Shown in pieces: positions 11,994 through 29,162 of a DNA stretch of 64,000 nt. The DNA is taken from NCBI GenBank assembly GCA_938049385.1, contig CALIBQ010000007.1:1-64000 (forward strand), written 5' to 3'. Both the position numbers and the translations under genes were made by a program. The stretch comes from an uncultured Anaerolineae bacterium. Its GTDB lineage: Bacteria; Chloroflexota; Anaerolineae; JACIWP01. Under the pieces are notes generated by a model. It saw nothing but the letters and a program-made list of their open reading frames with translations, was not told the DNA's origin and searched no databases. Every line of letters starts with the position of its first letter. Position 1 is the first letter of the stretch.

Positions 11994-12734
11994 ATGGTGA
12001 TTGTGGCGCGCGGCCTGGAACTGCACGTCGCGGTTGCCAAAGTGGCGAAGTACGCCGCCGGCGAGAGCGGCGATACGGTAGAGGTCATCGAGCGGCCGCA
12101 CGGCGGGTTATCCCTGGTGCTGGCCGACGGACAGAGCAGTGGGCGGGCGGCCAAGCTGATCAGCAATATCGCCGCCCGCAAGATCATTTCCCTGCTGGCA
12201 GACGGCGTGCGGGACGGCGCGGCGGCGCGCGCCGCCCACGACTACCTGCGCACCCTACGGCAGGGAAAGGTTTCGGCAGAGGTCAGCATTGCCTCGGTGG
12301 ACCTGACCACCGGCACGCTGGTCATTTCGCGCAACACACAGTGCCCAGCGGTTATTATCTGGCGCGCCCCGGCCGACGATTTCGCGGTCACCCTGCTGGA
12401 TGATCCCAGCGAACCGATCGGTATTCACCCCCGCACCAAGCCGGTCATCAGCGAGCTTCAGCTCGAAGTTGGGCTGTTTGCCCTGCTGTTCAGCGACGGC
12501 CTGCTGGCCGCCGGCCGGCGGAAGGGCCTTTCCTTCGACATCCCCGCTTTCGCCTGCGCGCATCTGCGCCAGGATTCCGCCAGCGCCGAAACCCTGGCCG
12601 AGGCGCTCATCTCCGAGGCTATTGCCCTGGATGACGGCCGGCCGGCCGATGACATCAGCGCGGCGGTGCTGGCGGTGTACCCCCATGCCGGCGCCGTACA
12701 AATCCGCAAAATGAGCGTGCGCTTCCCATTTTGA
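11994..12734 (+). CDS. SpoIIE/PP2C-type serine phosphatase
   Basis: 246 residues; starts 5 bp after the stalked membrane protein. It is a compact SpoIIE-like PP2C fold: the metal-binding stretch [20 protein letters not shown], the middle strand [35 protein letters not shown], and [12 protein letters not shown] near the end. Such proteins dephosphorylate anti-anti-sigma factors or other phosphoserine targets. There is no sensor or HAMP domain, so it probably acts with a separate partner, possibly the membrane protein just upstream. No anti-sigma antagonist gene is next to it. Confidence 0.82.
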
Positions 12735-12736
12735 TG

Positions 12737-12747
12737 TATAATATAAT
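12737..12747 (+). promoter_or_regulatory. Two overlapping -10-like boxes upstream of the kinase/Mth938 fusion
   Basis: The stretch contains TATAAT twice (12737-12742 and 12742-12747) immediately after the phosphatase stop. I see no convincing -35. It leaves a leader of about 65 nt with CAGGAGGG at 12801-12808. Confidence 0.4.
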
Positions 12748-12813
12748 TAAATGGACATGGCAGTCCGCCAGGTGTGAAAGCCCACAAACCTGTCGTTGTA
12801 CAGGAGGGCATGA

Positions 12814-13614
12814 TTGGCGATGAGCCATGGAGAAGCAACCTCTGCGCGGAAAGCCCAGGCCCCGCTGATTGCGGTGGTAGGGGTGTGTGCCTCCGGCAAG
12901 ACCACCCTGGTGGAGGGTCTGCGCGCCCTGGGCTACAATGCCCGACAAGTGGGGCAGGAGCATTCGTACGTGCCTTACATGTGGCAGCGCATCACACGGC
13001 CGGATATTCTCATTTACTTGCATGCCAGCTATGAGGTGGTGGCCCGCCGGCGCGAGGTGGATTACGACGCGGCCTACTGGCAGGAGCAGGAGCGCCGGCT
13101 GGCTCACGCCGCCATGCACGCCCATCTGATGATTGATACCGATGCGCTGACACCGGAGGAGGTGCTGGCCAGGGCAGTGGCCTTTCTGGAATCGCGGAGC
13201 GTCCAGTGTCTGGCTCCGGAGGGTTCGCCGGATGCGCCGGCGAAAGGAGGGTCTCTCGCCATGCATCTCATCGAGGGATACGAGTTCGGCCGAATCCTGA
13301 TTGACGGCAAGACCTATCGGGCGGACCTGCTCATCCTTCCGGACGGCATCCATCCAGATTGGTGGCGGCAGGAAGGGCACGCTCTGGCGGTGGTGGACCT
13401 GTGGGAGCTGACCCAATGCGACCCACTGCCGGAGGCGCTGGTAGTGGGCACCGGCTCTCACGGCCGTATGACGGTCCTGCCCGAGACAGAACAGTGGTTG
13501 AAAGAGAAGGGGATCGAACTGCGGGCACTGCCTACCGCCGAGGCCTGCAAGGTCTACAATGCCCTGGTGGAGAAGGGGGTGCGCGCCGCGGCCGCCCTGC
13601 ACCTGACCTGCTGA
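12814..13614 (+). CDS. P-loop NTPase/kinase fused to an Mth938 (DUF498/NDUFAF3-like) domain
   Basis: 266 residues from TTG 12814 (6 nt after GGAGG); ATG 12820 is the alternative. Residues 8-130 form a small kinase-like P-loop domain: IAVVGVCASGKTTLVEGLR (Walker A GVCASGKT) and a late acidic stretch LMIDTD. Residues 150-266 are an Mth938-type domain (IEGYEFGRILIDGKTY, ALVVGTGSHGRMTVLPE, ALPTAEACKVYNALVE). Between them lie AAAGGAGGG (13244-13252) and an in-frame ATG at 13261, so the second domain may also be made as a separate 117-residue protein. The kinase substrate is unknown. Mth938 homologues in mitochondria are complex I assembly factors, but that role is not implied here. Confidence 0.8.
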   Translation: MAMSHGEATSARKAQAPLIAVVGVCASGKTTLVEGLRALGYNARQVGQEHSYVPYMWQRITRPDILIYLHASYEVVARRREVDYDAAYWQEQERRLAHAAMHAHLMIDTDALTPEEVLARAVAFLESRSVQCLAPEGSPDAPAKGGSLAMHLIEGYEFGRILIDGKTYRADLLILPDGIHPDWWRQEGHALAVVDLWELTQCDPLPEALVVGTGSHGRMTVLPETEQWLKEKGIELRALPTAEACKVYNALVEKGVRAAAALHLTC

Positions 13615-26533: not shown

Positions 26534-27472
26534 TCAGGCGGTCGCCCGTCTGCCGGTCAGCCGGCGGAAGAGCCGGCCGAAATCTCCCTGCTCCCAGGAG
26601 ACCAGCAGAGGCACCGCATTGAAGATGGACGAGTAGGTGCCGCTGACCATGCCCACCAGCAGGACGGATGCGAACTGCTTCATCGTCTGGCCGCCGAAGA
26701 GCAGGATGGCGATGAGCACAAAGATGGCATTCAACTGGGTGGCCAGGGAGCGGTGTAGGGTCTCCAGCAGACTGCGGTTGACCACTACCTCGAAAGGCTC
26801 GCCGCGCCGTTTGGGGATGTTCTCGCGGATGCGGTCGAAGACCACGATGGTATCCTGCACGGAGAAGCCGATGACGGTCAGGATGGCAGTCAGGAAGAGG
26901 GCATCCACCTCCCAGCCGGCGATGAGGCCCATCAGGGCGAAGAAGCCGGATGCCACCAGCACATCGTGCACCATGGCGGCGATGGCGCAGACGCCGTAGC
27001 GGAAGGCATTGGGCACGCGGCGGAAGGCCAGGATGATGAAGACCAGGATGACGATGGCCGCGGCGACCGTGGCGATGAAGGCGGTGCGGGTAACGATGGC
27101 GCCAATGGTGGGGCCAACCAGCTCATAACGCAGTTCTTCCGCCTGCCCGAACTTGGCGAACAGCGCCTGTGCGATCTGGGTCTTTACCTCCGGTTCCAGC
27201 GGCTTACAGCGAATCAGGGCGGTGTAACCGTCAGTGGTGGTCTGCACTGTGGTGTCGCTGTAGCCTTGGTCCACGAAGACCTGGCGCACCTCCGCCGGCG
27301 TCACCGGTTGGGGGAAGCGCAGTTCCCATAAGGTGCCGCCGGTGAAGTCAATGCTCAGACGGAAGATGGTGCCGACCTGCGTCAGCGAGATGATCATGGC
27401 GATGATGCCCAGGCTGATGAGCACACCCGAAAGGATGAAATACCATTTTCGTTTTCCGACGATGTCAAACAT
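26534..27472 (-). CDS. secF: Protein translocase subunit SecF
   Basis: 312 residues with six predicted membrane helices. The family features are visible: IDFTGGTLWELRF in the first periplasmic part, ATVAAAIVILVFIILAFR (TM2), the TM4 motif FLTAILTVIGFSVQDTIVVF followed by DRIRENIPKRR, and RSLATQLNAIFVLIAILLFG. With SecD it uses the proton-motive force to finish preprotein export, which suits a genome with so many secreted proteins. It lies 54 bp downstream of secD. Confidence 0.96.
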   Translation of the reverse strand: MFDIVGKRKWYFILSGVLISLGIIAMIISLTQVGTIFRLSIDFTGGTLWELRFPQPVTPAEVRQVFVDQGYSDTTVQTTTDGYTALIRCKPLEPEVKTQIAQALFAKFGQAEELRYELVGPTIGAIVTRTAFIATVAAAIVILVFIILAFRRVPNAFRYGVCAIAAMVHDVLVASGFFALMGLIAGWEVDALFLTAILTVIGFSVQDTIVVFDRIRENIPKRRGEPFEVVVNRSLLETLHRSLATQLNAIFVLIAILLFGGQTMKQFASVLLVGMVSGTYSSIFNAVPLLVSWEQGDFGRLFRRLTGRRATA

Positions 27473-27526
27473 GGAGCCTCCCTGCGAACATGTCCATGGA
27501 TTCTTGCGTTTCTTCCATCCGCCGGC

Positions 27527-28966
<1,440 letters not shown>

Positions 28967-29066
28967 GTACCAGCGATCCTCCCCGAAAAGTGCCGCGCGG
29001 CAGTTTTCTCTTAACACACAAAGGCCGGCGCTGGCCGGCAGTGCGCCCGTAAGCGCAACATAACCC

Positions 29067-29095
29067 ATTGTAATCCCTTCAGCATCATTTGTCAA
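29067..29095 (-). promoter_or_regulatory. Promoter for secDF-thiI
   Basis: Minus strand: TTGACA (29095-29090), 17-bp spacer, TACAAT (29072-29067). Leader about 95 nt. Confidence 0.75.
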
Positions 29096-29162
29096 AACAA
29101 CCGCCATCCCGGACGGCCGGCGGCCGTACGCCCTTTCTACCGCCAGGCGAGATATCGGGTTT

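Follow-up and report, generated by a model that had tools for sequence, protein, structure and literature searches.

A single open reading frame in the 64,000-nt stretch of Anaerolineae DNA analysed here (hereafter the window) joins a small P-loop kinase-like domain to a DUF498/Mth938 domain, and most probably goes back to two neighbouring genes that one inserted G brought into one frame, with the start signal of the second gene left in place. We put the probability of this explanation as a whole (ancestrally separate genes, a real one-G fusion, a retained DUF498 start and synthesis of both products) at roughly 0.78; its inferred parts are the reality of the insertion and the production of both proteins. 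The initial annotation had proposed a P-loop kinase-Mth938 fusion at 12814-13614, and the uninterrupted frame (12814-13614, + strand, 266 aa, from the ORF listing of the window), the PF04430 match and the P-loop fold bear it out. The in-frame ATG at 13261 and the preceding AAAGGAGGG, which it had placed at the domain border, are likewise present. Translation of the kinase part could start at TTG 12814 or ATG 12820. Below, congeners are the two other species of the genus (genomes G001 and G002), which share ~87-89% DNA identity with the window in this region. The features of the locus are as follows.

11994-12734, + strand: gene of a SpoIIE/PP2C-type phosphatase, the upstream operon partner of the kinase (PF07228, E 6.9e-17)
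12802-12808, + strand: AGGAGGG, ribosome-binding site of the kinase (from the sequence; kept in both congeners)
12853-13206, + strand: P-loop kinase-like domain with GVCASGKT, QEHSYVPYMW, RRR and RRLAHA (profile match, AlphaFold2, Foldseek)
13207-13260, + strand: linker rich in Pro, Gly, Ala and Ser (alignment with G001 and G002)
13243-13251, + strand: AAAGGAGGG, Shine-Dalgarno (SD) sequence of DUF498 with an extra G (congener alignment, predicted pairing)
13261-13614, + strand: DUF498/Mth938 domain with its ancestral ATG at 13261-13263, predicted free product of 117 aa (PF04430; separate ORF in G002)
26534-27472 and 27527-29107, − strand: SecF and SecD, the usual downstream operon partners (PF02355, PF22599, PF21760)

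The C-terminal domain (residues 153-263) covers the complete PF04430 profile (positions 1-109 of 109, E 7e-25 to 9.2e-26) and scores 87.6 bits against a curated cut-off of 33, which places it in the DUF498/Mth938 family over its whole length. By sequence it matches the solved structures of MTH938 (1IHN) and human C11orf67/AAMDC (2AB1), and it differs from this family in being fused to a P-loop domain. To our knowledge, no function has been established for the family in bacteria. For the N-terminal ~125 residues, profile searches gave only sub-threshold matches to AAA_18 and AAA_16, and no named kinase family exceeded its cut-off (AAA_18, 26.1 bits versus 29.4). Searched against PDB sequences, the kinase domain alone found weak matches, and its profile weak and mixed P-loop matches. 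Joint alignments that combined fused with single-domain proteins (A4, A5) came out misaligned, and the structure model accordingly covers the kinase domain. AlphaFold2 folds this domain confidently as a P-loop domain (pLDDT 89.4), for which Foldseek returned the RapZ N-terminal domain as best match, followed by dephospho-CoA and shikimate kinases (E 2e-4, TM up to 0.70 to RapZ). The domain thus combines a Walker A P-loop with a kinase-like fold, and the P-loop residues G21, C23, G26 and K27 are invariant across 45 sequences. It has the P-loop and the overall fold in common with small P-loop kinases (shikimate kinase, dephospho-CoA kinase) and the RapZ N-terminal domain, but is only ~125 aa long, carries a QEHSxVPxMW motif specific to its own family and has no NCBIfam match in the profile search. 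We describe it as a small P-loop kinase-like protein with putative phosphotransfer activity. Its family occurs in 63 of 400 Chloroflexota genomes (profile search, E ≤ 1e-5), with over 500 relatives across the genome collection.

The origin of the fusion can be read from its relatives. In both congeners, kinase and DUF498 are separate ORFs in different frames with 40 nt in common; the kinase ORF of G002 extends to L003:1977, past the first base of the DUF498 ORF (L003:1938-2291). Where the window reads AAAGGAGGG, the congeners read AAAGGAGG. The single extra G, which makes GGG of GG at 13249-13251 (context AAAGGAGGGTC in the window, AAAGGAGG-TC in the congeners), fuses the two frames. SD core, ATG and flanks are otherwise conserved, so the site is kept in all three species of the genus, and alignment with G001 and G002 shows that the linker contains what used to be the 3' end of the kinase gene, together with the 5' leader of DUF498. 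Outside the genus, the two genes of the outgroup G026 are co-oriented, with a stop and 27 nt between them, and those of G060 overlap by 4 nt. Their separation in the congeners, G026 and G060 shows that the pair started out as two genes, and what was called an 'internal ribosome site' is simply the downstream gene's normal ribosome-binding site. Its SD and ATG exist as initially annotated, but they did not evolve within a gene; the novelty is the fusion. The comparison with relatives suggested at that stage thus yielded separate neighbouring genes in G001, G002, G026 and G060, as well as an SD core and ATG identical in both congeners. Among 298 genomes of the class, only that of the window carries kinase and DUF498 in one uninterrupted frame.

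We envisage that the kinase-like and DUF498/Mth938 genes were ancestrally separate, translationally coupled operon genes, the ends of which would, within the genus, have come to share 40 nt in different frames. Insertion of a G in the DUF498 SD of the window's species (AAAGGAGG to AAAGGAGGG) would then have abolished the kinase stop and created one frame. Ribosomes arriving from the kinase start (12814 or 12820) would produce the kinase-linker-DUF498 fusion; as the original SD and ATG persist, those entering at 13261 most probably continue to make free DUF498. Such a fusion is probably young; it would be either functional or neutral, and may be neutral.

The fusion is known from one metagenome-assembled genome of 85 contigs, and the extra G is absent from both congeners and the joined frame from every other genome, all of which would fit a sequencing or assembly error in a locus that in reality holds two separate overlapping genes. 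We consider such an error unlikely. The window and G002 differ by 15 indels per 1364 aligned non-coding nt, so that a genuine one-base indel within ~50 nt of spacer is nothing unusual; the change lies in just such a short, unconstrained spacer, and the step from GG to GGG involves no long homopolymer. Across the ~43 kb of shared coding sequence that the error estimate spans, no other uncompensated mid-gene frameshift was found, and a few off-frame stretches at ORF ends most plausibly reflect uncertainty about where the ORFs start or end. Indel rate and the lack of further frameshifts together argue for a real, recent mutation, which the sequence comparison clearly favours over an assembly error.

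With the extra G taken as real, the question is whether one or two products are made. The 16S rRNA of the window's genome ends in GGATCACCTCCTTT, and ATG 13261 has the strongest predicted anti-SD pairing (-12.1 kcal/mol) among 122 in-frame internal ATGs from 16 window genes; a pairing of this strength is found for 12 of the 2078 ATGs on both strands of the window. The insertion lengthens the distance between SD and ATG from 9 to 10 nt, and the predicted pairing in the congeners is -12.8 kcal/mol. As the same SD and ATG start a separate gene in both congeners, the internal signal is more than a chance occurrence. Internal AUGs with a strong SD are normally used. The open frame, and a linker that would allow the two domains to fold independently, would also be seen if the full-length protein were the sole product and the SD-like stretch a relic; we regard this as quite improbable, given an SD core and ATG unchanged from the congeners, the similar pairing energies and the usual fate of internal AUGs with a comparable SD. 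SD-like sequences stimulate frameshifting and a strong one lies inside the 40-nt overlap, but the idea that programmed frameshifting yields the fusion in the congeners as well, and that the window has hard-wired it, was rejected as hardly credible, as inspection of the overlap revealed no slippery heptamer of the X XXY YYZ type and the two genes are ordinary neighbours in G026 and G060.

A retained DUF498 start thus agrees best with these data: from its sequence, the old signal probably still works, and both the fusion and free DUF498 are most likely made. An SD with an in-frame start codon at the domain border is also what dual-product genes have, and genes that yield a full-length and a C-terminal product from one frame, by an in-frame internal start, are already known, among them those of SpaO/SpaO-short (PMC13059759), the two-polypeptide phage endolysins (PMC9430671) and Cas11b (PMC11899642). 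Like those genes, the fused gene uses one frame and one stop codon and has an in-frame ATG behind an SD where the domains meet, but it is a very recent fusion of two genes that are separate in sister species, and its products are predicted. The dual-product gene initially suggested is therefore plausible and its internal site conserved, but the fused arrangement itself is confined to the window's genome among the 298 of the class.

A second fusion of DUF498 was found in another family of the class, where an RNase_H_2 (YprB-like) exonuclease is fused in frame to DUF498 in 6/6 genomes searched, at the following loci.

L192:1264-2961, L194:1884-3590 and L193:2755-4479: RNase_H_2-DUF498 fusions
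L213, L215 and L217: further RNase_H_2-DUF498 fusions

Elsewhere in the class this exonuclease is mostly standalone, and its fusion arose independently of that with the kinase. All six have a purine-rich, SD-like stretch and an invariant in-frame ATG at the DUF498 start, with predicted pairing (-8.7 to -12.9 kcal/mol) above that of any other internal AUG examined within the respective gene. The purine stretch is kept even in the two fusions that encode GEEG or GRGE instead of GEGG, which may hint at selection on the SD itself. A synonymous-codon null gave p = 0.009 for one genome but was not significant for the remaining five (p 0.29-0.60), since any Gly-Glu-Gly-Gly peptide is likely to be encoded by a stretch of this kind; the parallel case hence draws on where the stretches lie and on their repetition, rather than on codon statistics. 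The recurrence of SD-like stretch and ATG means that keeping a free DUF498 start may recur. We tentatively propose, at somewhat less than even odds, that DUF498 has been fused at least twice in the class to unrelated upstream genes, each time keeping SD and ATG because free DUF498 is still needed.

The kinase belongs to a conserved Chloroflexota operon of the order PP2C(SpoIIE)-[TrkA]-P-loop kinase-SecD-SecF, compiled from loci L050-L069 and L110-L189 plus window positions 11994-13614. The 99 kinase loci include some duplicated between two collections and do not contain G002. A same-strand SpoIIE/PP2C phosphatase precedes the kinase in 94/99, a TrkA-type protein is encoded upstream in 46/99, and downstream follow SecD (72/99), SecF (68/99) and DUF498 (7/99). 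With G002 added and a duplicate G001 record removed, DUF498 follows the kinase in seven distinct genomes. The pair is thus not an orphan, its members being operon neighbours in several relatives; G026 and G060 have the order kinase, DUF498, SecD, SecF, and the window's SecDF (26534..29107, − strand) lies 13 kb from kinase-DUF498. A further gene separates kinase and DUF498 in G008 (L052:6892-7989), where it encodes a GAF-HD protein, and in G075 (L053:6933-8018), where the copy was matched to that of L052 by blastp only. G060 also has genes for an 875-aa pentapeptide-repeat protein and a Sortilin-Vps10-like protein between PP2C and kinase (L050:6885-10687). Gene order suggests a common membrane role, with kinase and phosphatase as opposing partners. 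We know of no described function for this operon, and our literature search found no paper treating both NDUFAF3, a DUF498-type protein, and SecF.

These results draw attention to an operon (PP2C, TrkA, P-loop kinase, SecDF) that is common among Chloroflexota but uncharacterised, and the position of DUF498 beside SecDF in two of the genomes offers a clue to what Mth938-type proteins do. The related genomes display the stages of a gene fusion, from a 27-nt gap over overlaps of 4 and 40 nt to one frame, the last step being the change of a single base, and illustrate how gene fusion can create an internal ribosome site at no cost.
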